A stretch of 50,365 nucleotides of DNA from Verrucomicrobiota bacterium (GTDB lineage: Bacteria; Verrucomicrobiota; Verrucomicrobiia; Limisphaerales; Fontisphaeraceae). This document shows positions 12,585 to 45,574 of the stretch, piece after piece. Each line of letters begins with the position of its first letter. Position 1 is the first letter of the stretch. The translations under genes were made by a program, and so were the position numbers. The notes beneath the pieces were generated by a model. That model saw nothing but the letters and a program-made list of their open reading frames with translations. It did not search any database and was not told the DNA's origin. The stretch covers positions 1-50,365 of the forward strand of contig JBAXGN010000028.1 of the NCBI GenBank assembly GCA_037139415.1, in the 5' to 3' direction.

Positions 12585-12963
12585 TTCCGGTTACAGAGCA
12601 TTTGCCGGATGATGCTAATACACTGAACCGATGGGGTCCAGTCTGCATTCGCCCAGGGCTGCATCAAGCGCGTTGGTGCGTTACGAATAGTACGAGGTGG
12701 GAGGGCCTGTGGTTCCGTACCCCCTCCTGTATCCTCTCCCTCGGGGCATGGGCGTCAACCTTATTGGTTGCGTAATTTGCGCGGGTTCTGCCAGTTCACC
12801 CGCGCCCGTCGCCGCCCTTAGCGTCAAGCGCGCCGCCCACCGGAGCGCGGACCTCCGATCCGCGTGGCTTTGACTGCTTTAGCCGCATGCACCGTTGAGG
12901 GAATAACCGAAGCGGCTCCCGCGCCCCCCAGCGGACCGGAGGTCCGCGCTCCTTGGGTTGACG
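12585..12963. other. Intergenic region carrying a palindromic element
   Basis: No gene is visible between the NimA-like start and the sigma-factor relic. The first half (12585-12815) has only short frames. The second half is dominated by the inverted repeats described in the next entry. Confidence 0.6.
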
Positions 12964-12966
12964 CTA
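12819..12966. repeat. Palindromic (BIME/MITE-like) element with nested inverted repeats
   Basis: Outer arms TAGCGTCAA (12819-12827) and TTGACGCTA (12958-12966) are perfect 9-base inverted copies. Inside them, a 22-base arm at 12842-12863 (beginning GGAGCGCGGACCTCCG) is repeated in inverse orientation at 12931-12952 with one mismatch. Each inner arm is itself nearly self-complementary (GCGGAC/GTCCGC), as in REP units, so two REP-like units face each other across about 67 bases. No transposase is encoded. The right outer arm contains the TAG stop of the truncated sigma-factor copy, so the element abuts the duplicated segment. Confidence 0.65.
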
Positions 12967-13378
12967 GAACCACGTTTTAAGTTTCTCGCGGAGAATTTGT
13001 CTGGCCCGGTAAAGACGGGATTCAACGGCCTTGGGTGTGCTCTGCAAGACCGTGGCCGCTTCGGCTACCGGCAGGGCTTCCCACTCACAAAGAATGATGG
13101 CTTCGCGCATGTCGTCCGGCAGAGCTTGCACCGCCGCGCGGACGGCTTTGGCCCGTTCGGCAGCCTCGGCGGCCTGGTTGGGATCGGTGGTTGCGGCAGG
13201 CAAGGTGTCACCCAGGGTTTGCTCGGTCGTTTCGGATTCGGCATCGAGCGAGACGTTCGGGTGCCGGGCATGCCAGCGATGGTGGTTGCGGGCCAGGTTC
13301 GCGGCGATGGTAAACAGCCAGGTGCTGAATTTATGTTCCGGATATAGGTCTCGCGGGAGCGATAGACGCGAACGAAGG
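12964..13378 (-). pseudogene. Truncated duplicate of the ECF sigma factor gene
   Basis: This segment is nearly identical to 19208-19623, the C-terminal two thirds of the ECF sigma factor. The identical part begins at CCCGGTAAAGACGGG, while the last dozen codons differ (ILREKLKTWF against LLREQLKKWL). The N-terminal region 2 sequence (MDRHAPGVFHFLCRML, DDANDLAQDTFVRV) is absent. One T is missing in GGATATAGG (intact copy GGATTATAGG) near 13343, which also shifts the frame. The segment is joined at 13373-13378 to the 3' end of a copy of the cysteine-rich protein gene. The open frame that runs through it to 13539 is a chimera of antisense and sense pieces and cannot make a sigma factor. Confidence 0.85.
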
Positions 13379-13463
13379 GGTGGAAAAAAATGCCAGGGAC
13401 ACCGTGAAACACACGTGCAAAAGCGTCGGCAGTGAAGGCGCGTCTTGCTGCTCCATGAAATAA
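13373..13463 (+). pseudogene. 3' fragment of the cysteine-rich protein gene
   Basis: A copy of about 21083-21173, the last 28 codons of the small exported cysteine-rich protein. It reads GVEKNARDTVKHTCKSVGSE followed by GASCCSMK and a TAA stop, against GVGKNAKDTVKHSCKSGSSE and GASCCAMK in the intact gene. The start, signal peptide and the CPKC and CPTC motifs are missing. Homology continues past the stop through the terminator hairpin to about 13538, where it ends. That is where, in the intact locus, an aquaporin gene fragment begins. Confidence 0.85.
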
Positions 13464-13496
13464 GGTGGCAACCCACGCCGGACAGCGGCTGAGCAA

Positions 13497-13524
13497 AGCG
13501 GCTCTCACACGAGGGTCGCTTTTT
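13497..13524 (+). terminator. Hairpin terminator, copy 2
   Basis: A 10-bp stem AGCGGCTCTC / GAGGGTCGCT with loop ACAC, followed by TTTT. It is homologous to the hairpin at 21208-21231. One stem pair changed from G-C to T-A on both sides, so the fold is kept despite sequence change. It terminated the lost cysteine-rich protein gene. Confidence 0.65.
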
Positions 13525-13538
13525 GCGTTTACAGAACA

Positions 13539-13875
13539 ACGGAAATCAAGCGAAGCGCCACAGTGGGAATGGCCATGATTAGCGGGGAACTGAGTCTGGT
13601 TAACCTTGGCCTTGGCGAGGGGCGTTTGGTATCGCGTCAGAACCGGTGCGGGCATATTTTCTAATTCATACGAAATTACTATTGCGTAATACTAAAAATC
13701 AAGTATTAAGTTCTCATACGTTCGTAATACTAGGAAAACGAGTGGGGGCAGCGGCGTTGGAACGCCGCGGGTCCGCTCGCGGCAACAACGATCAGATGAG
13801 TCGAAAATCGCCAGTCACAATGCTGACGCCTTGGATGGGTGGCAGCGGCTTGTCCGCCATCGTGCCGGAGGCAAC
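13539..13875 (+). promoter_or_regulatory. Upstream region of the radical SAM/ABC operon with AT-rich repeats
   Basis: A 337-base leader without a gene. From 13661 to 13734 the composition drops to strongly AT-rich, unlike its surroundings. Within it, CGTAATACTA occurs twice (13685-13694 and 13723-13732), CATACG occurs twice (13667-13672 and 13715-13720), and ATTAC-N6-GTAAT forms an inverted repeat (13675-13690). Seen from the other strand the half-sites read GTATTAC and CGTATGA. These resemble half-sites of metal-responsive regulators such as NikR in general form only. This is the natural place for the promoter and operator of the six-gene operon that starts at 13876. No riboswitch could be recognised. 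Confidence 0.4.
13751..13768. repeat. Perfect 18-base palindrome
   Basis: GCGGCGTT-GG-AACGCCGC is a perfect 8-bp stem with a two-base spacer, followed by GGGTCCGC. It is GC-rich and sits about 108 bases before the first gene of the operon. It resembles the short REP-like palindromes in this DNA. It is not followed by a T-run, so it is not an obvious terminator. Confidence 0.5.
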
Positions 13876-14480: not shown

Positions 14481-15701
14481 ATGAAAAAGCATCCGGACAA
14501 ACCCATAGCCAATCAGGCTCGACCATTCGGCCTGGGCCAATCACTTGTGCTGGCGCTGGCCCTCAGTGCCGCCTTCGCGTTGCCGCCGGCATCAGTCCAG
14601 GCCGGTTTTGCCACCGCGGGCCAAGGGATCAGCAATGTGCTAGCCGGGAGCGTGAGCAACGGGGCGTTGTTTTGTGGCACCACGACCAACTGGGCCAACA
14701 GCACCCCGAGCTTGCCTTTCAACACAACCGTCGGGTGGTCGCTGCCGGTCTGCGACCGGGTGGTCGCCAGCCGGTTGATCATGACGTTGTGGGGTGGCAC
14801 GGCGAATTACACCTGCCAGATGACGGTGGCCATCAATGGCACGAACCTGCCAGCAGCAAATCCACTGGTGTTTGGGTCCACGAGTGACGCCAACGCGGTT
14901 TTTAGCGGGGTTGCGCCGTGCGTCTATGGCGCGGGGTCCGGGCTGTGGGTGGTTGGCCTGCCGGTGCCGGAGGAGATGCTGCACCGGGACGGTTCCAGCA
15001 ATACGGTGAGCATCACGGAGAGCACGCCAGACAGTTTCGACGGGCGGATTCACCATGTCACCCTCGTAGCGGTCTATCAATCCGCCGCCCTGAGTAATCA
15101 GTTTGATTATGCACTGGCCGAAGGCAGCGGCGACATTTACGGCACGCCTGCCGCGCCGCAAGTCAATCAGCGCACCGTCCCGCTGGGCACTGTGAACCCC
15201 ACAAATGCCACGGCAGCGCGGCTGACCGCGCTTTACACGTATGGCGACACGGGACAGAATGACCGGCTCTATTTCAACGGCGTGCAATTGGGCGGCGATG
15301 ATGTTGCGCAATGGGATAAGACCGGCACGGGATTGAACTACGGCCCGAGCGTGGCGAGTTTCGAGGTGCTGGGCAGCCTGGCGGCGACCAATAGCGTAAG
15401 GTTTACCGTGGCGGCGACGGATGTGCCCGGCACGCGGGAAACAAGCCTGCGCCCGCAACTGGCGGCGCTCACGGTCACGCGCCCACCACAGACCGCCCCG
15501 CCCGCACTGGGCATTGCGTTGAATGTGGTCGTCACCTGGCCGGTTTCGGCGGGTACGTATCAATTACAGTTCCGCCCCAGCCTGGAGAGCGGGAGCTGGA
15601 GCAACGTGACCAATGCGCCAACGGTCATCAACGGTCAGAACGCCGTCCTGCTGCCGCGTGGCGCGGCGCAGCAGTTTTACCAACTTCAAAAAACGAACTA
15701 G
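14481..15701 (+). CDS. Secreted DUF3344-like protein
   Basis: 406 residues. A long n-region and signal peptide end near residue 41 (LVLALALSAAFALPPASVQA-GF). Residues about 45-330 match the DUF3344 pattern as I know it: repeated beta structure with TANYTCQMTVAINGTNLPAA, PCVYGAGSGLWVVGLPVPEE, DGRIHHVTLVAVYQ, and FDYALAEGSGDIYG. A second similar half follows (ALYTYGDTGQNDRLYFNGVQ; TGTGLNYGPSVASFEVLG). The last 60 residues are the short verrucomicrobial C-terminal domain (YQLQFRPSLESGSWSNVTNA ... FYQLQ). DUF3344 has no established function. In other genomes it occurs in surface proteins of methanogens and bacteria. Position between a pseudopilin and an ABC binding protein suggests a surface receptor or scavenger for the ligand taken up by the transporter. 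That is inference. Confidence 0.75.
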   Translation: MKKHPDKPIANQARPFGLGQSLVLALALSAAFALPPASVQAGFATAGQGISNVLAGSVSNGALFCGTTTNWANSTPSLPFNTTVGWSLPVCDRVVASRLIMTLWGGTANYTCQMTVAINGTNLPAANPLVFGSTSDANAVFSGVAPCVYGAGSGLWVVGLPVPEEMLHRDGSSNTVSITESTPDSFDGRIHHVTLVAVYQSAALSNQFDYALAEGSGDIYGTPAAPQVNQRTVPLGTVNPTNATAARLTALYTYGDTGQNDRLYFNGVQLGGDDVAQWDKTGTGLNYGPSVASFEVLGSLAATNSVRFTVAATDVPGTRETSLRPQLAALTVTRPPQTAPPALGIALNVVVTWPVSAGTYQLQFRPSLESGSWSNVTNAPTVINGQNAVLLPRGAAQQFYQLQKTN

Positions 15702-19138: not shown

Positions 19139-19207
19139 TGTTCTTTTTCGTTCGCACATTGTGCAGTGCTGGTACTAAAGGGGCTTCCGGGAGAGGCTGT
19201 GTCCGGG

Positions 19208-19792
19208 CTAAAGCCACTTTTTGAGTTGTTCCCGAAGTAGGTTGCGCGCCCGGTAAAGACGGGATTCAACGGCCTTGGGTGTGCTCTGCAAGACCGTGGC
19301 CGCTTCGGCTACCGGCAGGGCTTCCCACTCACAAAGAATGATGGCTTCGCGCATGTCGTCCGGCAGAGCTTGCACCGCCGCGCGGACGGCTTTGGCCCGT
19401 TCGGCAGCCTCGGCGGCCTGGTTGGGATCGGTGGTTGCGGCAGGCAAGGTGTCACCCAGGGTTTGCTCGGTCGTTTCGGATTCGGCATCGAGCGAGACGT
19501 TCGGGTGCCGGGCATGCCAGCGATGGTGGTTGCGGGCCAGGTTCGCGGCGATGGTAAACAGCCAGGTGCTGAATTTATGTTCCGGATTATAGGTCTCGCG
19601 GGAGCGATAGACGCGAACGAAGGTGTCCTGCGCCAGATCGTTGGCATCGTCTTCGTTGCCCAGCATCCGGCAGAGGAAATGAAAGACCCCGGGGGCGTGC
19701 CGGTCCATCAGGTTGTTGAGAGCCGCATCGTGTCCGCCTGCCAGCTTCGCCATATCTGCCCGGTCCAGGGCTTCCGTATCAACGGTGTCCAT
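19208..19792 (-). CDS. ECF sigma factor (CnrH-like position)
   Basis: 194 residues from ATG 19792 (MDTVDTEALDRADMAKLAGG). The frame is open to 19846, but that start would run further into the upstream gene. Region 2 is clear: DALNNL-type helix DAALNNLMDRHAPGVFHFLC, DDANDLAQDTFVRVYRSRET, and FSTWLFTIAANLARNHHRWH. After an Ala/Glu-rich linker, region 4 is LPDDMREAIILCEWEALPVA followed by EAATVLQSTPKAVESRLYRAR. It overlaps the upstream sensor gene by 14 bases, so it is the third gene of a minus-strand operon with the anti-sigma and sensor genes. It should direct transcription of its own operon and of the divergent cysteine-rich protein gene. A damaged second copy lies at 12964-13378. Confidence 0.93.
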   Translation of the reverse strand: MDTVDTEALDRADMAKLAGGHDAALNNLMDRHAPGVFHFLCRMLGNEDDANDLAQDTFVRVYRSRETYNPEHKFSTWLFTIAANLARNHHRWHARHPNVSLDAESETTEQTLGDTLPAATTDPNQAAEAAERAKAVRAAVQALPDDMREAIILCEWEALPVAEAATVLQSTPKAVESRLYRARNLLREQLKKWL

Positions 19793-20273
19793 GGGAATTG
19801 GGATTCGCTGGGGACATGGTGTGTTCAACCTGCTCGTGGAAGCCAAGGGTCAGGCGCTGCATCTCGGCGAGGTAACGCCGGCCTTGCTCCGGAGGCATGA
19901 CCTGACTGACTTCGCGGAAGTGTTGCAGCATTGCAGCCTGGCATTGGGCGCGCAGGGTGCCGACTTCGATGAGCTTTTGCTCGATGGCGGCGGGCGTGCT
20001 GGTGCTGGCGGCCAGCATTGTTTGCAATTCGCGCTTCCGGGAATCAATGCGCTCGCAGAACTCGCGGCACTTGGGCAGGTAACCGTCGTGAAGTTCGCGC
20101 ACCCGGGCCAGGTCGGCGTCGTTCAAGTGGAACTCCAGCCGCAACCAGGCGAGGTCATCACCGGGTTGCACCGCATGTTGAATGCACCAATGAGCGGCAA
20201 GGCGTTGACTCGCGAGAAAAACCGCAACTCCGGCGAGGAGCATGGCGACGAAGATGAGGAGCGGGCGGCGCAT
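19779..20273 (-). CDS. Periplasmic metal sensor-like protein (CnrX/CpxP/Spy type)
   Basis: 164 residues from ATG 20273. An N-terminal helix anchors it (PLLIFVAMLLAGVAVFLASQ) and a helical periplasmic domain follows. Candidate metal ligands are H28, C30, H33, H49, H62, C69, C73, C111, H118 and several Met. The patterns LHDGYLPKCREFCERIDSRK and CQAAMLQHFREVSQVMPPEQ resemble helical heavy-metal sensors of the CnrX/Spy group, but with a Cys-x3-Cys pair that CnrX of Cupriavidus lacks. Start four bases after the anti-sigma stop and the overlap with the sigma gene show one transcription unit. In CnrYXH the sensor releases the sigma factor from the anti-sigma when Ni or Co binds. The analogous role here is inferred from order and topology. 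Confidence 0.72.
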   Translation of the reverse strand: MRRPLLIFVAMLLAGVAVFLASQRLAAHWCIQHAVQPGDDLAWLRLEFHLNDADLARVRELHDGYLPKCREFCERIDSRKRELQTMLAASTSTPAAIEQKLIEVGTLRAQCQAAMLQHFREVSQVMPPEQGRRYLAEMQRLTLGFHEQVEHTMSPANPNSHGHR

Positions 20274-20768: not shown

Positions 20769-21173
20769 ATGAAGACAATTAAAAATATCCTCACCTCTCT
20801 GACCCGTGGAACATGGATCGCGGCCGTGGCCGGAATCACGCTCGCCGCCAGTAATGGCATGGCGCAAGATCGGGGCGCCACGCAACTAATCAAGCCGCAC
20901 CCGCACAACTCGGTGGCCGAAGTGCAGAAGGTGGCGGCGGGCGACCCAGCGGTCATGGCTTGCCCGAAGTGCAAGGACTCCTTGGTGACGGAGGCGGAGA
21001 GTACCGGCAAGGGCGCGAACCCGACGGTGACCAAGACCTACCTGCAACATGGCTGCCCCACCTGCAGCACCAAGATCGCGACCGAAGGGGTGGGGAAAAA
21101 TGCCAAGGACACCGTGAAGCACTCTTGCAAAAGCGGCAGCAGTGAAGGCGCGTCTTGCTGCGCCATGAAATAG
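20769..21173 (+). CDS. Small exported cysteine-rich protein
   Basis: 134 residues from ATG 20769. A signal peptide ends near residue 32 (WIAAVAGITLAASNGMA-QD). The mature protein has CPKC (65-68), HGCPTC (94-99), HSC (118-120) and a terminal CC (130-131), which is seven cysteines in about 100 residues, and HPH at 44-46. Two CxxC pairs plus single Cys and His look like a metal- or thiol-reactive site in the periplasm. I recognise no named family. The gene is divergent from the CnrYXH-like operon and is the obvious candidate target of its sigma factor. A hairpin terminator follows at 21208. A damaged copy of the last 28 codons lies at 13373-13463, next to a damaged copy of the sigma gene. Confidence 0.8.
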   Translation: MKTIKNILTSLTRGTWIAAVAGITLAASNGMAQDRGATQLIKPHPHNSVAEVQKVAAGDPAVMACPKCKDSLVTEAESTGKGANPTVTKTYLQHGCPTCSTKIATEGVGKNAKDTVKHSCKSGSSEGASCCAMK

Positions 21174-21207
21174 AGTGGCAAACCCAAGCCGGACAGCAGC
21201 TGAGAAA

Positions 21208-21235
21208 AGCGGCTCGCACACGCGGGCCGCTATTT
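21208..21235 (+). terminator. Hairpin terminator, copy 1
   Basis: A stem AGCGGCTCGC / GCGGGCCGCT of 10 bp (one T-G pair) with loop ACAC, followed by ATTTGCGTTT. It lies 35 bases after the cysteine-rich protein stop. The second copy at 13497 keeps the fold with a compensating base-pair change, which supports a real RNA hairpin. Confidence 0.7.
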
Positions 21236-21254
21236 GCGTTTACAGAACACTGTA

Positions 21255-21338
21255 AATGGCACGCGGCCCCCAACCGGCCAGCGAGGAAAACCGGCGCGGG
21301 ACCAGACCGCGGGCGGGGTAGAAACACGCCATGGTGAG
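21255..21338 (-). pseudogene. Fragment of an aquaporin gene
   Basis: On the minus strand this reads TMACFYPARGLVPRRFSSLA followed by GWGPRA, against TMACFNPARDLAPRLFSSLA and GWGGVP in the intact glycerol-channel gene at 29811-29893. DNA similarity is clear by eye over about 84 bases with one indel. The NPARD channel motif has become YPARG. No other part of the gene is present. The fragment starts right where homology between the two copies of the sensor module ends. Confidence 0.75.
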
Positions 21339-35920: not shown

Positions 35921-38900
35921 ATGAACCAGAACAAGCTTAATTTCACTTGGCTGCGAATGCTGGCAGGGGTCCTGCTTTTGTCCATGATGGCACCCGCCGC
36001 TTTTGGTCTTCTCCCACCAGCAAAACCACCCATGGCGAATTTCGACAAACGCGTCATTCCCGCTGCTCAGGCAGCAGCGGCGGCATTGCCAGCCACCCAA
36101 GCCGCCAGCTTGGTTAAGCTCGGCGGTGTTGTGCCCGGTCTAAAAGTGGATTTTGCGCCCATTACCGGTTCCCCCAAGGTGATTTCCGCCGCGCAAGGAT
36201 TTTTGACCGGCCCCAATGGACAGGGACAGGCGATTTCACCGGAATCTTTGACGAGCTTCGCCGCCAACGATCCGCACCGCGTCCTCAAAGCCTTTCTGAT
36301 GGAACATCGCCAACTCTTTGGCCATGGGCCGGAAGCGTTGGATCAGGCACGCGTATTGCGGGATTATACGGATGTGCATAACGGGTTGCACACGGTTGTG
36401 TGGGAACAGCAGGTGGATGGAATTCCGATCTTTGAAGGCGTGTTGAAGTCCCACACCACCAAAAATGGGGAGTTAGTCAATGTAGCCAGTCAATTTGTGG
36501 CCGCTCCCGCAGCGGCGGCCGATTTGGGAACCCCCCAACGCGCAATGGTGATTTTGGCACCCCCGGTAACTGCTCGCCAAGCGGTGGTAAGCGCGGTCAG
36601 TACGATTGGCGAGACGCTCGTGGAAGCACAGCTTACGGTGGATCCCGCGAATCCGGCGGTCACCGGAGCGGAGCAGCGCCAAGTGTTTACGGCACCCGGG
36701 CTTAAAGGCCAAACCGTGGTGCAGTTACGTTGGGTGCCGATGGATAAAAATCATCTGCAACTGTGTTGGGATGTGATTTTTATGAGCCGCGCGCGAGGGG
36801 AGATGTTTCGGGTGCTCGTGTCGGTGCAGACGGGCGAAGCGCTGGTGCGGCGTTGCCTGACGGCTTATCTCACGGACGCAACGTACAACGTCTTTACGAG
36901 CGATAGTCCTTCGCCGCTGTCGCCCGGCTATCCAACCCCGGTGACGAACCAACCGCCGTTGGTCTCGCGCACGCTGGTAACCCTGCCGGCGTTAGACACT
37001 AATGCCTCGCCCGCTGGCTGGATAAATGACGGCGGCAACGAAACTTGGGGCAATAATGTGGATGCACATACTGACCGCAACGGCGATGATATACCGGATT
37101 TACCACGGCCGCAAGGCTCGCCCGCCCGGGTTTTTAACTTTCCCATGGACCTGACCACCCAGGACCCAACCAATTACAGTCAGGCGGCGGTCGTACAGTT
37201 GTTTTACCTGTGCAACTGGTACCATGACAAAATGTATGCACTGGGCTTCACCGAAGCTGCCGGTAATTTTCAGAGTAACAACTTCGGACGGGGCGGTTTT
37301 GCCAATGACGCGGTAATGGCCGACGCCCAGGATGGCAGCGGCACCGACAATGCCAACTTCTCCACGCCGCCGGATGGGAATTCAGGGCGGATGCAAATGT
37401 ACCTTTTCACGGGAATGAGCCCGCGCCGGGATGGGGACTTGGATGCGGAAGTTGTGATCCATGAACATACGCATGGTTTAAGTTGGCGGCTGGTGGGGGG
37501 GGGAGACGTATTAGGTGACACCCAGTCTGACGGCATGGGGGAAGGGTGGTCTGATTTCTACGCCATGTCATTGTTGAGCGAGCCCGCCGATGATGTGAAT
37601 GGCAATTATGCCAGCGGCGGCTATGCCAGCTATAAAATTGGCGGGCCCAACGATTTGCAGAACTACTACTTTGGCATCCGGCGCTATCCGTACACAACGG
37701 CGATGGCTCGGAATCCCCTGACTTTCAAGGATATTGATCCGGCCCAAGCCGATTTCTGTTCCTCGCCGGCACCGTATCATACCGGGATGTTTGGTCCCTG
37801 CAATGCCGCCTATGCCGACGAAGTCCATAACGAGGGGGAAGTCTGGTGCGTGACCTTGTGGGAAGCGCGTGCCAATCTCATTAACAAGTATGGCTGGACA
37901 ATTGGCAATCAACTCATCCTGCAACTGGTGACCGATGGCATGAAATTAAGCCCTGCGCACCCCAATTTCCTCCAAGCCCGCGACGCGATAATCCAGGCGG
38001 ACTTGGTGAATAACGGCGGAACGAACCGCTATGAGTTATGGACCGCGTTTGCGAAACGTGGCATGGGCTACAGTGCCACCTCCCCATCCAGTTCGACGGC
38101 CAGTGGCGTGCATGAGAGCTTTGACCTGCCTCCCTTATTTCTACAAATATCGCCCGCCGACGGGTTGGTGAGTCGGGGGCCGGTGGGTGGTCCATTCAGT
38201 CCTTCGACCAAAACCTACACCCTGCTCAACAGTCAAGCGACTCCCATGGCATGGCGGGTCACTTCCACCCAGGCGTGGTTATCCGTGTCGCAAACGAATG
38301 GCATTCTTCCAGCCAACGGGTCCACGTTGCTCACGATCACGGTCAACGCGGCCGCAAATGGTTTGCCCATGGGGATCTACACCAACACGCTGATTTTCAC
38401 CAATAGCCTCGAACCCGACATCCAATCGCGTCCGGTCATTCTCGGGGTGGGTGTTTCCGATAATTACACCGAGTTATTCGATAATGCCACGACCAATGAC
38501 CTGGCTTACACGTCGTACACGTTTACGCCGGATGGCCGCACAAATTATTGGGTTTGCCGCCAGCCGGCGACCGTCTTTCCCACTGATCCCACTGGTGGCA
38601 CGCTGGTTCCTTTGAATGATAACGCCTACGCGCAAGTCACACTCACCGGCACCAACACCGTCGCCATCTACAACCGGCGGACGAATGTCTTTTTCATTGG
38701 CAGCAACGGCTACCTGACCATGAATCGCGGCGATACAAATTCCTTCGAGTCGTTAACCAATCATTTCAGTCTGCCACGTGTTTCAGCCTGTTTCCACGAC
38801 TGGAACCCGCGCAATGGCGGGACGATTTCCTGGAAACAGACGTCCAAATTGGTGGCCGTGACCTTTACCAACGTGTATGAAGCTGGCAGCACGCAAGCGG

Positions 38901-41170
38901 TCAGCTTTCAGATTCAAATGTTCTTCGATGGTCGTATCCGGTTGACCTATCTGAATGTGGGCATTACTGGTGGTCTGGCGGGTCTGTCCGCTGGTCTGGG
39001 GATGCCGAATTTATTCATGAAGAGCGATTTCAGCACGTATGATTCCTGCCAACTGGGCGAGGCGGTCGAAGCCACCAACCTCGTCTGGACCACCGGGGGT
39101 GATGCCTACTGGTTCCCGGAAACCAGCACGACGTTTGATGGTGTGAATGCCGACCAAAGTGGAAAGATTGGCGATGGGCAGCAGAGTTGGATTGAAACCA
39201 CCGTGGTCGGGCCGGCCACCCTGAGCTTCTATTGCAAAGTTTCCTCGGAACTCGGGTTTGATAAACTGCAATTCTACACCAATGGCGCGCCTTATCCCAA
39301 CAACGGCGCGCCGCCCTACCCGCAGTTTGAAATTTCCGGGGAAATTGACTGGCACCAACGCACGTTCGCGCTGGCGCCGGGAACCAATGTGTTGCGCTGG
39401 CGTTATATCAAGGATGGCAGCGGCGCCAGCGGCACGGATGCGGCGTGGCTGGACCAAGTCCAAGTGGCGGTTCCCACCCCCCCGCAGATTACCAGTGTGT
39501 TGACCAATCAATCGGTCATTATCGGCAGCAACGCGACCTTTAGTGTGACCGCGACCGGCACTGCACCCTTGCTTTATCAATGGTACTACAACGGCGCGCC
39601 CATTGGGTATTCCAACGGGCTGTCCATTGCCAATACGTTTGGCGCGGCATTTGGAGGGGTCGCGGCGCTTGGCATTGCCAACGCGCAACCGGCCGATGCG
39701 AAGAACTATTACGTTGTGGTCACCAATCTCTATGGCAGCGCCACCAGCAGTATAGCCACGTTGACGGTGATTCCGCTATTACCCTTGGCGGTGGCGGTGA
39801 ATAACCCGGGTTTGGCGGTGGCCACCGGGGGGGACGCCCCGTGGCTGGGATTGCCGACCATCACCCATGATGGCGTGGCGGCGGCGCAAAGCGGTTTCAT
39901 TGGAGACGCCATGCAATCCTGGATGGAAATAACGGTGGTGGGCCCGAGCCACATCGGGTTCTGGTGGAAGGTCTCCTCGGAAACCAACACTGATTATTTG
40001 GAGTTCACCCTCAATGGCGTGCGCACCAACCTCATCTCCGGCGAAGTGGACTGGACCCGGGTGGGCTATGATGTCCCTGCTGGTACCAACGTAGTGCGCT
40101 GGAACTACGTTAAGAATGGCAGTGTGAGCGCCGGGCAGGATGCCGGGTGGGTGGACCAGATTTTGATTGGCCGTCCGCCCGTCGTGGTGCAGAACCCGCC
40201 ATCACGCCTCACGGTCCCGTTGCATGGCGGCACCAATTTGAGCGTCACGGTGAGCGGCGACCTGCCGATGCAGTATCAATGGTATCTGGATGCGACGGCG
40301 CTCGCCCACGCTACCAACACGCAATTAAGCCTCGCCCAGGTGCAGTATGTTCAAAGTGGACCTTATTCGCTGGTGATCTCGAATACCTATGGGGTGGTGA
40401 CCAGCACGCCGGCGCGCCTGCTCATCCTGCCCCCCGGCCAGATCCATACCAACACGGCGAGTGTGGCCGGAACCATCACGATTCCGAGTGCGGGTCCCGC
40501 GTCGGTTTATCCGTTTACCAACCTGATTGCGGGGGTCACGGGCAGCGTTCAACAAGTGACGCTCACCGTGAGTAATTTGACGCATCCCTACCCGGCGGAT
40601 TTACAGATGTTGTTGGTCAGCCCGACCGGGCAGGCGGTCCTGTTCCTGGCGGGCGGGTCCAACGGCGCGCCGGTTGCGGGAGCGACCTTGACCTTTGATG
40701 ACACGGCGGCCACCGGGGTGCCGGCGCAAAGCGCGATTACCAGCGGAGTGTATCGGCCAACGGTGATCGGGCTGGTGCCGGCCTTGCCGGCCCCAGCGCC
40801 CACGAATGGGTACGCCACCAATTTGGCGGCGTTTACGGGGAGCGACCCCAATGGCGTGTGGAGTTTGTTCATCAATGCTGGCAGCACCAATGGGGCGGCC
40901 GCTGGCAGCGTGGCTGGCTGGAGTTTGAACTTCGTGACGCAACCGGCGGTGATCCCGCCGGCGATCTTCCCGCCGGCGATCACCAGCGGGCAGATATTAT
41001 TCAGCCTGCGGCCCGAGGTGGGCAAAACGGTATATATTGAATACAAGGACAACCTGCAACAGACGCTCTGGCAGGCGTTGACCAACTTCCCGGGGGACGG
41101 CAACCTGCACACCATCAGCAATCTGACCAGCGGTGCGAGCGGACGATTCTTTCGCATGTACCTGCAATAA
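35921..41170 (+). CDS. Giant secreted M36 (fungalysin-like) metalloprotease
   Basis: 1749 residues. A signal peptide (MLAGVLLLSMMAPAAFG) is followed by an FTP-like propeptide region (about 100-320). The M36 zinc protease carries H514-E515-H-T-H518 in EVVIHEHTHGLSWRL and the third-ligand region SDGMGEGWSDFYAMS. A BACON/Ig-like domain (about 745-845) and a sandwich of about 200 residues (YTSYTFTPDGRTNYWVC) come next. From A1051 a 699-residue tail contains two similar jelly-roll-like domains (LVWTTGGDAYWFPETST; VATGGDAPWLGLPTITHDGV), two Ig-like domains (PLLYQWYYNGAP; MQYQWYLDATA), a proprotein-convertase P-domain-like segment (PADLQMLLVSPTGQAVLFLA), and a short C-terminal domain ending GRFFRMYLQ. 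The tail is shared with the M6 protease downstream. It probably acts on extracellular protein or at the cell surface. Confidence 0.92.
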   Translation: MNQNKLNFTWLRMLAGVLLLSMMAPAAFGLLPPAKPPMANFDKRVIPAAQAAAAALPATQAASLVKLGGVVPGLKVDFAPITGSPKVISAAQGFLTGPNGQGQAISPESLTSFAANDPHRVLKAFLMEHRQLFGHGPEALDQARVLRDYTDVHNGLHTVVWEQQVDGIPIFEGVLKSHTTKNGELVNVASQFVAAPAAAADLGTPQRAMVILAPPVTARQAVVSAVSTIGETLVEAQLTVDPANPAVTGAEQRQVFTAPGLKGQTVVQLRWVPMDKNHLQLCWDVIFMSRARGEMFRVLVSVQTGEALVRRCLTAYLTDATYNVFTSDSPSPLSPGYPTPVTNQPPLVSRTLVTLPALDTNASPAGWINDGGNETWGNNVDAHTDRNGDDIPDLPRPQGSPARVFNFPMDLTTQDPTNYSQAAVVQLFYLCNWYHDKMYALGFTEAAGNFQSNNFGRGGFANDAVMADAQDGSGTDNANFSTPPDGNSGRMQMYLFTGMSPRRDGDLDAEVVIHEHTHGLSWRLVGGGDVLGDTQSDGMGEGWSDFYAMSLLSEPADDVNGNYASGGYASYKIGGPNDLQNYYFGIRRYPYTTAMARNPLTFKDIDPAQADFCSSPAPYHTGMFGPCNAAYADEVHNEGEVWCVTLWEARANLINKYGWTIGNQLILQLVTDGMKLSPAHPNFLQARDAIIQADLVNNGGTNRYELWTAFAKRGMGYSATSPSSSTASGVHESFDLPPLFLQISPADGLVSRGPVGGPFSPSTKTYTLLNSQATPMAWRVTSTQAWLSVSQTNGILPANGSTLLTITVNAAANGLPMGIYTNTLIFTNSLEPDIQSRPVILGVGVSDNYTELFDNATTNDLAYTSYTFTPDGRTNYWVCRQPATVFPTDPTGGTLVPLNDNAYAQVTLTGTNTVAIYNRRTNVFFIGSNGYLTMNRGDTNSFESLTNHFSLPRVSACFHDWNPRNGGTISWKQTSKLVAVTFTNVYEAGSTQAVSFQIQMFFDGRIRLTYLNVGITGGLAGLSAGLGMPNLFMKSDFSTYDSCQLGEAVEATNLVWTTGGDAYWFPETSTTFDGVNADQSGKIGDGQQSWIETTVVGPATLSFYCKVSSELGFDKLQFYTNGAPYPNNGAPPYPQFEISGEIDWHQRTFALAPGTNVLRWRYIKDGSGASGTDAAWLDQVQVAVPTPPQITSVLTNQSVIIGSNATFSVTATGTAPLLYQWYYNGAPIGYSNGLSIANTFGAAFGGVAALGIANAQPADAKNYYVVVTNLYGSATSSIATLTVIPLLPLAVAVNNPGLAVATGGDAPWLGLPTITHDGVAAAQSGFIGDAMQSWMEITVVGPSHIGFWWKVSSETNTDYLEFTLNGVRTNLISGEVDWTRVGYDVPAGTNVVRWNYVKNGSVSAGQDAGWVDQILIGRPPVVVQNPPSRLTVPLHGGTNLSVTVSGDLPMQYQWYLDATALAHATNTQLSLAQVQYVQSGPYSLVISNTYGVVTSTPARLLILPPGQIHTNTASVAGTITIPSAGPASVYPFTNLIAGVTGSVQQVTLTVSNLTHPYPADLQMLLVSPTGQAVLFLAGGSNGAPVAGATLTFDDTAATGVPAQSAITSGVYRPTVIGLVPALPAPAPTNGYATNLAAFTGSDPNGVWSLFINAGSTNGAAAGSVAGWSLNFVTQPAVIPPAIFPPAITSGQILFSLRPEVGKTVYIEYKDNLQQTLWQALTNFPGDGNLHTISNLTSGASGRFFRMYLQ
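39071..41170 (+). repeat. Direct repeat, copy 1 (2.1 kb)
   Basis: The last 2100 bases of the M36 gene match 43455-45554 at a constant offset of 4384 bases. The only differences I see are at 41122 (T/C), 41146 (A/G) and 41151 (T/A). Identity starts at codon 1051 and ends at the stop (TAAAG). It is a direct repeat with intact reading frames on both sides. Confidence 0.95.
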
Positions 41171-41492
41171 AGTTGCGGGTTCTTCGCTGTTTTCGGTGGC
41201 GTACTCAGCGGAATCCCGAAGTCCGAATACCGAATCCCGAAAGAAATCCGAAATCCGAGATCCGAAAACAAGCCACCTCCATGAGGGGAGCCACCGACGC
41301 CTGTGGCCGTCGCCGGGCTGGAAAAATGCCGCGTTTCAACGTGAAAAGCGAACCGGCCACCAACCGCGTGCCAGCCATCGGCTTTCGGATTTAGCTGGCC
41401 CCCTATTCCATTCAAAATAGCGAGGAGCCAAAAAAGGCTTGCGGCAAGCCGGAATACATTTTAGGTTGCTGGGCAAGATAAAACGCTTTAAA
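41171..41492. other. Intergenic region with short dispersed repeats
   Basis: No gene is seen. TTCTTCGCTGTTTTCGGTGG at 41180-41199 recurs exactly at 50238-50257. At 41211-41272 a degenerate CCGAA/CCGAG unit occurs about seven times with spacing of 7-13 bases. This is not a CRISPR: units are too short and spacing is irregular. The M6 protease start lies at the end of this stretch. Confidence 0.55.
41211..41272. repeat. Degenerate TCCGAA short repeats
   Basis: Copies such as CCCGAAGT, CCGAATA, CCGAATC, CCCGAAAG, CCGAAAT, CCGAGAT and CCGAAAAC follow each other. It looks like the intergenic 'aatccgaaatccg' repeats common in this kind of genome. Function is unknown. Confidence 0.45.
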
Positions 41493-44400
41493 ATGCCATT
41501 ACTCATGAAGAAAATGTCTTCCAAAAGACCGGCTTCCGGTTTATGGACGCTCCTGGCCTTTGTGCTGCTTTCATTTAGCATCTTGGCGGCGCCGTTTGCC
41601 AAGCTGTTCACCTTTACTCAACCGGATGGTACCCGCATAGAATTATCCGGCAAGGGGGATGAGTTTTATGCCGTTTTTGAAACGGTGAATGGTTATACCG
41701 CGATCTATGATCCGGCGGTGCGTGCCCATTGTTACGCCAAGCTGACGGATGACAAATCCGATTTGGTTTCCTCCGGGGTACAGGTGCATCAGGCACAGGG
41801 GCAGGACTTGGGATTGGTGCAGCATTTGCGCGCCCCCAGGGCCACCGTCCAAAAAAAGGCGGCCGCTCGTCATAAAATCTGGGACGATGCCACGCAAGTC
41901 TCGCAGCGCTGGCAGGATTTGAAGGCCTCCGCACATGCAGCCGAAGCCGCAACGGCCAGCGGGATACAAAACTCGCCGCCCGCGAATCCGACCATCGGGA
42001 ACTATGTGGGTTTGACCCTGCTGATTGATTTCAGCGACCAAGTCGGGACCATCACCCCGACCAATGTCTGGGATTTCTGTAACGGGACTAATTTCACGAT
42101 GTATGGCAATCGGAGTTCCGTAAAAAAATACTATCAGGACGTTTCCAACAACCGGCTGACCTATTCCAACATGGTCACCTTGTATGTGCGCGCGCCCCAA
42201 CCCAAGACCTATTATGATGACGGCACCAAAGACGCCGGAACGCAAGCGCGTTTATTGCTGGGCGACGTCATCACGGCCATGCAAGCCCTGCCTAATTTTA
42301 ACACGGATTTTGTGCCTTTATTTGCCTCATTGAGCACCAATAGTTCTGGTAATGTTAGAGCTTTTAATGTGTTTTACGCCGGCTCGGTCTCTTCCGGTTG
42401 GTCTCTGGGTTTGTGGCCGCATTCTTGGAGCCTGGCTGCTCCGGTGGCGTTGTATGCCGGCGGGCCAAAGGTTTACAACTATGAAATAACCGACATGGGA
42501 TCCAGCCTGGCCATTGGCACTTTTTGTCATGAAAACGGGCACATGCTCTGCGGTTTTCCCGACATCTATGATTATGACGGGAGTTCCGTAGGTGGGGCAG
42601 GCATGTTCTGTCTCATGAACAACGGTAATTGGGGTAATGGTGGCTTGGATCCAGTTCAGGTGTGTGCCTATCTGAAAACGGCGGCGGGATGGGCGAACAT
42701 CAGTAACATCAACAACACCAGTATGTTGACAGGAGTTTTAACGTCGGCTATGGGAACGAATTTTAATTTCTTTTATCGCTATCAAAAGCCGGGTGTTGCC
42801 ACGGAGTACTTTCTGTTGGAAAACCGGCAAAAGGCCGTTCATGATTCATATATCCCAGCCAATGGTGGCATAGCGATCTGGCATATTGATGAGTTGGGGG
42901 ATAAAAATAACGAGAGTTTGACGCCCAACACCTCCCATTTGAACTATGAGGTCACCCTTGTACAAGCGGACAATCTTTGGGATTTTGAAAATAATGTAAA
43001 TAGTGGAGAAACCGAGGACCTGTACTTCCTCGGCAATACTGCGTCTGGCTATGCCAACCAGTTTAGCGATAGCACCGCTCCGAACGCGCACTGGTGGGAT
43101 GGGACCAATTCAAACCTGTTGTTGCGCAATTTTTCCCTGAGTGGAACGACGATGACCTTCGGCATCGGGGCCGACCCCACGCCGCCCATCATTACCGTCC
43201 AACCGCAAAGTCTGGCTGTCATCGTGGGGCAAAGCGCGACCTTCAATGTCGTCGCCACTGGCGCGTTGCCGATGTATTACCAATGGTATTTCAACGGCGC
43301 GCCCATCACGAATTCCAACAACTCCACTTATACCATCGCTTCCGCCCAGGTAACCAATTCCGGCACCTACTATGTGGTGATTACCAATGCCTTGGGCAAG
43401 GCGACCAGTTCCAATGCCTTGCTTACCGTGTTTTCCCTGGCGATCGCAGTGGATGCCACCAACCTCGTCTGGACCACCGGGGGTGATGCCTACTGGTTCC
43501 CGGAAACCAGCACGACGTTTGATGGTGTGAATGCCGACCAAAGTGGAAAGATTGGCGATGGGCAGCAGAGTTGGATTGAAACCACCGTGGTCGGGCCGGC
43601 CACCCTGAGCTTCTATTGCAAAGTTTCCTCGGAACTCGGGTTTGATAAACTGCAATTCTACACCAATGGCGCGCCTTATCCCAACAACGGCGCGCCGCCC
43701 TACCCGCAGTTTGAAATTTCCGGGGAAATTGACTGGCACCAACGCACGTTCGCGCTGGCGCCGGGAACCAATGTGTTGCGCTGGCGTTATATCAAGGATG
43801 GCAGCGGCGCCAGCGGCACGGATGCGGCGTGGCTGGACCAAGTCCAAGTGGCGGTTCCCACCCCCCCGCAGATTACCAGTGTGTTGACCAATCAATCGGT
43901 CATTATCGGCAGCAACGCGACCTTTAGTGTGACCGCGACCGGCACTGCACCCTTGCTTTATCAATGGTACTACAACGGCGCGCCCATTGGGTATTCCAAC
44001 GGGCTGTCCATTGCCAATACGTTTGGCGCGGCATTTGGAGGGGTCGCGGCGCTTGGCATTGCCAACGCGCAACCGGCCGATGCGAAGAACTATTACGTTG
44101 TGGTCACCAATCTCTATGGCAGCGCCACCAGCAGTATAGCCACGTTGACGGTGATTCCGCTATTACCCTTGGCGGTGGCGGTGAATAACCCGGGTTTGGC
44201 GGTGGCCACCGGGGGGGACGCCCCGTGGCTGGGATTGCCGACCATCACCCATGATGGCGTGGCGGCGGCGCAAAGCGGTTTCATTGGAGACGCCATGCAA
44301 TCCTGGATGGAAATAACGGTGGTGGGCCCGAGCCACATCGGGTTCTGGTGGAAGGTCTCCTCGGAAACCAACACTGATTATTTGGAGTTCACCCTCAATG

Positions 44401-45554
44401 GCGTGCGCACCAACCTCATCTCCGGCGAAGTGGACTGGACCCGGGTGGGCTATGATGTCCCTGCTGGTACCAACGTAGTGCGCTGGAACTACGTTAAGAA
44501 TGGCAGTGTGAGCGCCGGGCAGGATGCCGGGTGGGTGGACCAGATTTTGATTGGCCGTCCGCCCGTCGTGGTGCAGAACCCGCCATCACGCCTCACGGTC
44601 CCGTTGCATGGCGGCACCAATTTGAGCGTCACGGTGAGCGGCGACCTGCCGATGCAGTATCAATGGTATCTGGATGCGACGGCGCTCGCCCACGCTACCA
44701 ACACGCAATTAAGCCTCGCCCAGGTGCAGTATGTTCAAAGTGGACCTTATTCGCTGGTGATCTCGAATACCTATGGGGTGGTGACCAGCACGCCGGCGCG
44801 CCTGCTCATCCTGCCCCCCGGCCAGATCCATACCAACACGGCGAGTGTGGCCGGAACCATCACGATTCCGAGTGCGGGTCCCGCGTCGGTTTATCCGTTT
44901 ACCAACCTGATTGCGGGGGTCACGGGCAGCGTTCAACAAGTGACGCTCACCGTGAGTAATTTGACGCATCCCTACCCGGCGGATTTACAGATGTTGTTGG
45001 TCAGCCCGACCGGGCAGGCGGTCCTGTTCCTGGCGGGCGGGTCCAACGGCGCGCCGGTTGCGGGAGCGACCTTGACCTTTGATGACACGGCGGCCACCGG
45101 GGTGCCGGCGCAAAGCGCGATTACCAGCGGAGTGTATCGGCCAACGGTGATCGGGCTGGTGCCGGCCTTGCCGGCCCCAGCGCCCACGAATGGGTACGCC
45201 ACCAATTTGGCGGCGTTTACGGGGAGCGACCCCAATGGCGTGTGGAGTTTGTTCATCAATGCTGGCAGCACCAATGGGGCGGCCGCTGGCAGCGTGGCTG
45301 GCTGGAGTTTGAACTTCGTGACGCAACCGGCGGTGATCCCGCCGGCGATCTTCCCGCCGGCGATCACCAGCGGGCAGATATTATTCAGCCTGCGGCCCGA
45401 GGTGGGCAAAACGGTATATATTGAATACAAGGACAACCTGCAACAGACGCTCTGGCAGGCGTTGACCAACTTCCCGGGGGACGGCAACCTGCACACCATC
45501 AGCAACCTGACCAGCGGTGCGAGCGGACGGTTCTATCGCATGTACCTGCAATAA
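41493..45554 (+). CDS. Giant secreted M6-family metalloprotease
   Basis: 1353 residues from ATG 41493 (ATG 41505 is also possible, and no clear Shine-Dalgarno decides). A signal peptide (LWTLLAFVLLSFSILAAP) is followed by a propeptide-like part (FTFTQPDGTRIELSGKGDEF). The M6 immune-inhibitor-A-type catalytic domain is about residues 180-560, with H346-E-N-G-H350 in FCHENGHMLCGFPDIYDYDG. An Ig-like domain (PQSLAVIVGQSATFNVV; YYQWYFNGAPITNS) comes next. The last 699 residues are nearly identical to the tail of the M36 protease. The two proteases thus have unrelated catalytic domains with one common tail. The role is likely extracellular proteolysis. Confidence 0.9.
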   Translation: MPLLMKKMSSKRPASGLWTLLAFVLLSFSILAAPFAKLFTFTQPDGTRIELSGKGDEFYAVFETVNGYTAIYDPAVRAHCYAKLTDDKSDLVSSGVQVHQAQGQDLGLVQHLRAPRATVQKKAAARHKIWDDATQVSQRWQDLKASAHAAEAATASGIQNSPPANPTIGNYVGLTLLIDFSDQVGTITPTNVWDFCNGTNFTMYGNRSSVKKYYQDVSNNRLTYSNMVTLYVRAPQPKTYYDDGTKDAGTQARLLLGDVITAMQALPNFNTDFVPLFASLSTNSSGNVRAFNVFYAGSVSSGWSLGLWPHSWSLAAPVALYAGGPKVYNYEITDMGSSLAIGTFCHENGHMLCGFPDIYDYDGSSVGGAGMFCLMNNGNWGNGGLDPVQVCAYLKTAAGWANISNINNTSMLTGVLTSAMGTNFNFFYRYQKPGVATEYFLLENRQKAVHDSYIPANGGIAIWHIDELGDKNNESLTPNTSHLNYEVTLVQADNLWDFENNVNSGETEDLYFLGNTASGYANQFSDSTAPNAHWWDGTNSNLLLRNFSLSGTTMTFGIGADPTPPIITVQPQSLAVIVGQSATFNVVATGALPMYYQWYFNGAPITNSNNSTYTIASAQVTNSGTYYVVITNALGKATSSNALLTVFSLAIAVDATNLVWTTGGDAYWFPETSTTFDGVNADQSGKIGDGQQSWIETTVVGPATLSFYCKVSSELGFDKLQFYTNGAPYPNNGAPPYPQFEISGEIDWHQRTFALAPGTNVLRWRYIKDGSGASGTDAAWLDQVQVAVPTPPQITSVLTNQSVIIGSNATFSVTATGTAPLLYQWYYNGAPIGYSNGLSIANTFGAAFGGVAALGIANAQPADAKNYYVVVTNLYGSATSSIATLTVIPLLPLAVAVNNPGLAVATGGDAPWLGLPTITHDGVAAAQSGFIGDAMQSWMEITVVGPSHIGFWWKVSSETNTDYLEFTLNGVRTNLISGEVDWTRVGYDVPAGTNVVRWNYVKNGSVSAGQDAGWVDQILIGRPPVVVQNPPSRLTVPLHGGTNLSVTVSGDLPMQYQWYLDATALAHATNTQLSLAQVQYVQSGPYSLVISNTYGVVTSTPARLLILPPGQIHTNTASVAGTITIPSAGPASVYPFTNLIAGVTGSVQQVTLTVSNLTHPYPADLQMLLVSPTGQAVLFLAGGSNGAPVAGATLTFDDTAATGVPAQSAITSGVYRPTVIGLVPALPAPAPTNGYATNLAAFTGSDPNGVWSLFINAGSTNGAAAGSVAGWSLNFVTQPAVIPPAIFPPAITSGQILFSLRPEVGKTVYIEYKDNLQQTLWQALTNFPGDGNLHTISNLTSGASGRFYRMYLQ
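43455..45554 (+). repeat. Direct repeat, copy 2 (2.1 kb)
   Basis: The second copy of 39071-41170, with the same reading frame relative to the protein. It begins immediately after an Ig-like domain of the M6 protein (AVDATNLVW). The sequences before the repeat differ fully (GCGGTCGAA against GCAGTGGAT). Confidence 0.95.
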
Positions 45555-45574
45555 AGGCACCGTGCCCTTTAAAA
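45553..45574. terminator. Weak bidirectional hairpin between convergent genes
   Basis: AAAGGCACCGTGCCCTTT followed by AAAA lies in the 26-base gap between the stops of the M6 protease and the CotH gene. The AAAGG/CCTTT stem and flanking A/T runs could terminate in both directions. The stem is imperfect. Confidence 0.3.

Follow-up and report, generated by a model that had tools for sequence, protein, structure and literature searches.

The gingipains of Porphyromonas gingivalis are exported by type IX secretion. RgpA, Kgp and HagA of this organism, as described in PMC5266723, carry nearly identical C-terminal modular adhesin regions followed by a conserved C-terminal domain, and one P. gingivalis protein without a protease domain shares the adhesin region too. 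The same account reports domain rearrangement and allelic exchange for the gingipain repeats, describes short-read assembly as broken there and places all gingipain heads in peptidase family C25.

Here we describe a verrucomicrobial locus that resembles the gingipains in that different proteases end in a nearly identical C-terminal adhesin-like region. The window analysed is the whole of contig C28 (50,365 bp), from a 7.9-Mb draft genome of 378 contigs. The modelled fold of one tail module, jelly-roll A2, matches the cleaved-adhesin domains K1 and K3 of Kgp (Z 11.4), whereas neither jelly-roll module is matched by a Pfam family at E 1. In contrast to the uniform C25 heads of the gingipains, one head here is of family M36 and the other of M6. 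T9SS models for M36 and M6 proteins are matched, but with scores below their cut-offs, as is true of every T9SS model. The M36 head matches NF038113, NF038112 and NF038111, which describe M36 proteins with sortase-type or T9SS C-termini, with scores so far under the curated cut-offs (373 of 885, 341 of 1500 and 295 of 1700 bits) that the gene lies outside these families. The locus gives the gingipain pattern a second, distant example, here across different peptidase families, and it suggests that modular secreted enzymes quite generally come to share tails.

Two proteases of different families share a tail

The M36 protein scores 392 bits against a Pfam cut-off of 23.3 and shows the HEHTH motif in translation; its layout is an FTP propeptide motif, the catalytic domain, a BACON-like middle region and the shared tail (Table 1). 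The closest named matches to its head, at about 80%, are in three Verrucomicrobia metagenome genomes (L049, L050 and L056), from a search that perhaps did not include the record of the window itself. The second protein belongs to the M6-like family TIGR03296 (154.5 bits against a cut-off of 110.8, HENGH seen), with PF05547 at 29.6 against 22; a start at the ATG at 41493 or 41505 is likelier than the listed TTG. Both catalytic domains are therefore above their model cut-offs, in keeping with the initial annotation, which had two unrelated catalytic domains joined to one tail.

Table 1 Features of the M36/M6 locus, in coordinates of the window
Feature	Coordinates	Strand	Evidence or remark
M36 (fungalysin) metalloprotease gene, 1749 aa	35921..41170	+	PF02128 E 3.8e-117, PF07504 2.9e-9, PF19190 1.9e-5
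M36 catalytic domain, residues 344-719, HEHTH motif	36950..38077	+	Pfam, translation
M36 protein middle region	38201..39070	+	~40-55% identity to part of relatives
Jelly-roll module A1, copy 1	from 39047	+	Identical tract opens inside at 39071
Tail copy 1	39071..41172	+	2051 bp exact, then 3 differences
Intergenic dispersed repeat between M36 and M6 genes, ~210 bp	41178..41391		Copies elsewhere in genome
M6-type metalloprotease gene, TTG ORF 1371 aa as listed	41439..45554	+	TIGR03296, PF05547
M6 domain, residues 194-479, HENGH motif	42018..42875	+	TIGR03296, translation
M6 protein's own Ig domain, upstream of shared tract	43182..43388	+	Pfam
Jelly-roll module A1, copy 2	43431..43859	+	Identical tract opens inside at 43455
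Tail copy 2	43455..45556	+	Sequence comparison
Tail Ig domain (I-set/Ig_3)	43866..44150	+	Pfam
Jelly-roll module A2	44163..44561	+	AlphaFold2 model pLDDT 85
Part of P (proprotein convertase) domain	44937..45035	+	PF01483 28.8 bits vs 21
C-terminal domain ending in FYR	45324..45551	+	Near stop codon of many genes in fetched loci

Sequence comparison showed that positions 39071-41121 and 43455-45505 form a direct repeat with a spacing of 4384, matching over 2051 bp without mismatch. The only mismatches between the tail copies follow at 41122 (T/C), 41146 (A/G) and 41151 (T/A), which lie 50, 26 and 21 bp from the right flank, and the match then runs to 41172/45556, 2 bp beyond both stop codons. 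The total of three differences per 2102 bp, and of one residue per 699 (F/Y, the ends reading RFFRMYLQ in M36 and RFYRMYLQ in M6), agrees with the initial count. Outside the tract the flanks are alike only at chance level, at 26/100 bases to the left of 39071 and 29/100 to the right of 41172. The intergenic repeat, a separate dispersed family, recurs on contig C10 at ~92% identity and on C11 at, in part, 94-95%.

By length, the tail tract ranks second among the exact repeats found when 1.85 Mb of the genome (96 pieces, about 23% of the 7.9 Mb) was compared with itself. A DNA search of the same genome, in which at least 20 of the smallest contigs were perhaps uncovered, found no third near-identical copy, the next-best match being 67% over 301 bp; among the 16 matches listed, with the same coverage, there were also none of the short exact matches that a third copy, if collapsed, should leave. 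A genome-wide mobile tail is unsupported, this search having found only two near-identical copies.

Both tract ends lie within homologous modules

Comparison with a jelly-roll profile placed the start of the tract about nine residues into the first jelly-roll module of both genes. Directly upstream of the identical DNA the proteins read LGEAVEATN (M36) and LAIAVDATN (M6), near the profile's opening consensus LxxALDxxxLxW. Because these module starts are canonical yet differ, each gene had its own jelly-roll there before the tract, and the view that the repeat begins at a shared domain boundary must be abandoned. The right end of the tract is at the stop codon, within the C-terminal domain, where a paralogue on contig C203 still matches 40-41 of the last 63 bases. 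As both ends fall in homologous modules, they point to homologous exchange between two like tails rather than blind duplication; provided that the assembly is right, the tract is near-identical and stops within homologous modules that are otherwise diverged, as expected of gene conversion.

Recombination between the copies had been described as yielding an M36 catalytic gene that lacks everything up to 43455, with loss of the M6 catalytic domain. By our computation it would excise 4384 bp and the M6 head would indeed be lost, but the M36 gene would be left whole, with 1749 residues and a full tail.

Modules and predicted fold of the tail

The tail consists, in order, of jelly-roll A1, an Ig domain, jelly-roll A2, a second, weak Ig domain, part of a P domain and the C-terminal FYR domain. 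No Pfam family matches either jelly-roll module at E 1, and the jelly-roll profile found nothing significant among PDB sequences (best E 0.35). The fold of A2 was predicted with AlphaFold2 on four sequences (pLDDT 85; a model, with no solved structure) and compared with known structures by Foldseek and by a second comparison that gives Z scores. The model matches VesC with Z 15.7 (rmsd 2.1 over 118), meprin MAM domains with Z 12.4-13.3 and carbohydrate-binding modules with Z about 11. By predicted fold, A2 thus belongs to the MAM / carbohydrate-binding jelly-roll superfamily, a likeness that carries no function in itself. Surface or glycan binding is the common theme of the fold matches, and the tail may be a non-catalytic region for binding and export.

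Heads and tails are combined differently in relatives

We compared the locus with 57 relatives, none of the same genus, which with its own genome made a set of 58. At E 0.001, 25/57 relatives match the M36 head, 14/57 the M6 head and 8/57 both, and in none of the 57 do the two matches lie on one contig, although these are drafts in which pairs could be split. No M6 head was found in 20 M36 loci (3.5 to 21.6 kb) at E 1e-8. A conserved M36-M6 pair was accordingly not seen in these draft genomes.

Among the matches listed, the top-scoring tail match in a relative is 36% identical over residues 2-452, and shorter pieces reach up to 54%. M36 heads 79-81% identical to ours (L049, L050 and L056) carry other tails; the region after the catalytic domain is kept in part of the M36 relatives (the middle region is matched in L020, L022, L049 and L056, for example), and the tails then diverge. 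These M36 tails hold DUF11 and Calx-beta domains (L050), more BACON-like and other domains (L056) or Ig domains (L051 and L052), and repeats read by eye as Calx-beta-like occur in L049 and C85. Likewise the three best M6 relatives (L085, L086 and L087) keep the Ig domain after the head and differ beyond it, with fn3, RCC1 repeats with a jelly-roll, or PA14; an M6 paralogue on contig C14 shows no Ig domain at that place, and the Pfam M6 model finds no match at E 0.001 in these three or in the paralogue. Different tails on similar heads indicate that tails have been exchanged over evolution, and the M36/M6 pair looks like a recent instance.

A third protease in the same genome repeats the module order jelly-roll, Ig, P, FYR at about 50% identity, with another head and with DNA diverged to the 67% noted above. 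It is a single protein (L069 3090-7721, on C203) with M14 carboxypeptidase and C25 (gingipain-family) domains and the like tail. From the sequences, the tail it shares with the M36 and M6 proteins appears to be an older relation. At the three positions where the tail copies differ, the M6 gene agrees with this paralogue at two and the M36 gene at one. Jelly-rolls are found in relatives of both heads, namely in an M6 relative of G050 (head, Ig, jelly-roll, Ig) and in the M36 relatives L025, L033 and L050. Given this and the 2:1 split, neither gene is assigned as donor or recipient.

What the assembly preserves

Two direct copies on one contig form a simple loop in an assembly graph, one that can be opened out a single time even if no read spans it, so the true number of M6-plus-tail units is not fixed by the assembly. 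Among 9045 pairs of contig tips (135 tips), 16 have identical starts of 47-55 bases, none longer, and end-to-end overlaps of 40-41 bases occur in 3 further pairs; from this we infer an assembly of the de Bruijn short-read type with k about 55. According to PMC8021871, the fragments that supply the read pairs of such assemblies are shorter than 1,000 bp, and a 2-kb repeat is therefore not spanned by them. The same source, a review, states that metaSPAdes collapses strain bulges to a consensus. Differences within the k-mer chain of unique flanks survive, whereas deeper inside a repeat they can be merged away.

Other long same-contig repeats look similar. Apart from the tail tract, the longest exact repeats with both copies on one contig in the 1.85-Mb sample are those of C13 and C15, and their copies differ only in edge chains: the C13 repeat has 71 differences in its first 466 bp (gaps ≤40 bp) and 8 in its last 45, with 4212 exact bp between them, and in the C15 repeat 810 exact bp come after 6 differences in the first 30 bp. 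Around the repeats of C54 (500 bp) and C20 (373 bp), exact runs are at most 41 bp long within 400 bp on either side, as unrelated flanks would also give. Since differences are surely kept only near unique flanks, the exact identity of the tails cannot date the event. The initial reading of recent copying or conversion is upheld; dating the event, or calling conversion ongoing, from exact identity in an assembly with k about 55 is weakened. More generally, exact repeats in short-read metagenome genomes are no basis for inferring recent conversion. The visible edges (3 differences in 160 bp) suggest hidden tail divergence of up to about 2%, and the same bias may lie behind the longest near-identical pairs being same-contig neighbours.

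The C13 pair is made up of adjoining RHS-repeat genes (PF05593; L101, 8862-13584 and 14659-19381) around the exact core. Like the protease genes, they lie side by side, have a long exact repeat in common and differ at the ends; unlike the protease genes, they share the RHS core and differ in their C-terminal tips. Elsewhere, two contig-end paralogous repeats of 1.9 kb (L070 6525-8410 on C135 and L073 1-1916 on C42) are 81% identical, with tips that share exactly 55 bases.

Origin of the identical tract

We think it probable, by a modest margin over even chances, that recent homologous recombination within the genome, by conversion or equivalent copying, made about 2.1 kb of two pre-existing like tails the same. 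Neighbouring genes for presumably secreted M36 and M6 enzymes would each already have borne a modular tail of one kind, with jelly-roll, Ig, jelly-roll, Ig, P domain and C-terminal FYR domain. Recombination would then have equalised the tails from the start of the first jelly-roll to the stop codon, where homology was exhausted, and both enzymes would since be presented in the same way, on the same target. A plain single copying event fits the sequence nearly as well, and 'recent' could stand for a divergence of a few per cent, with interior differences possibly hidden by the assembly. The tendency of the three differences to cluster bears on this directly: the chance that three random differences would all lie within the final 51 bp of a 2102-bp tract is about 1e-5 (3e-5 for either end), improbable enough that a tract of conversion, assembly collapse or the two together must have been at work.

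Collapse could also be the larger part of the story, both tails being real and a few per cent apart, merged by the assembler so that only differences near the flanks survive; we hold this to be possible although rather unlikely. The shared contig tips, as expected of de Bruijn k 55, the position of the three differences, the similar look of the exact repeats on C13, C15, C54 and C20, the visible edge divergence and the bulge collapse described for metaSPAdes in PMC8021871 all fit it. The assembler, however, may have been another, and on C13 divergence falls from ~15% to none at a sharp edge, as conversion would produce and collapse alone would not. A single recent duplication that simply placed one tail's DNA on the second gene, without homologous exchange and without continuing conversion, would explain why just one near-identical pair was found and why its copies are neighbours in direct orientation. 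We regard it as unlikely, since a left end in register within a common module and a right end at both stops are hardly blind, and since it leaves the clustering to chance unless other differences are hidden. As for the second copy being an assembly error, with one tail only, a 2-kb repeat is unspanned in a short-read type draft of 378 contigs, but two left flanks, two right flanks and three differences require two copies or alleles, and each head is joined in frame within a canonical module; we judge this very improbable. A fault in the assembly is likelier to consist of hidden differences than of a false second copy. The account that we prefer thus remains recombination between two tails that were already alike.

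The C-terminal FYR domain

The domain that closes the tail is matched neither by a Pfam model (at E 1) nor by an NCBIfam model (at E 5). Its profile lies ≤15 residues from a stop in 33/46 matches, a count biased by C-terminal seeds and by two genes (G050 and G004) that were counted twice through overlapping loci; among the other 13 are ORFs truncated where the locus stops and one internal M6 motif. Considering ORFs with a visible stop, the FYR domain ends 7/10 M36 ORFs (the exceptions being L055, L058 and L060) and 5/5 M6 ORFs, and it also terminates M36 and M6 genes that bear other tails. Its structure model is weak (pLDDT 67) and matched nothing in the PDB at E 0.001; no function was drawn from it.

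A role in export or anchoring is plausible. A search of paper titles and of the opening lines of abstracts yielded nothing on verrucomicrobial shared tails or C-terminal sorting. As a tentative and rather doubtful extension, bacteria of this order (Limisphaerales, judging by named relatives) might export many unrelated secreted enzymes by a single undescribed FYR sorting tag, with the jelly-roll/Ig/P/FYR cassette as a swappable aiming-and-export tail kept alike by recombination across M36, M6 and C25/M14 heads in one cell. If it is a true export tag, the FYR domain would fill a gap, being without a Pfam or NCBIfam model. Within the window, the ORFs ending at 15698 and 33607 also have an FYR-type (or similar) C-terminal domain near the stop.

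Other features of the window

No RNA families were found in the window at gathering score. It contains two further pairs of direct repeats, 12963-13381 with 19207-19626 (96% identical) and 13367-13546 with 21077-21257 (87% identical). The 96% pair falls in two minus-strand sigma-70 family ORFs; that at 19211-19846 has regions 2 and 4, and that at 12967-13539, with region 4 only, is perhaps a partial sigma-70 copy.
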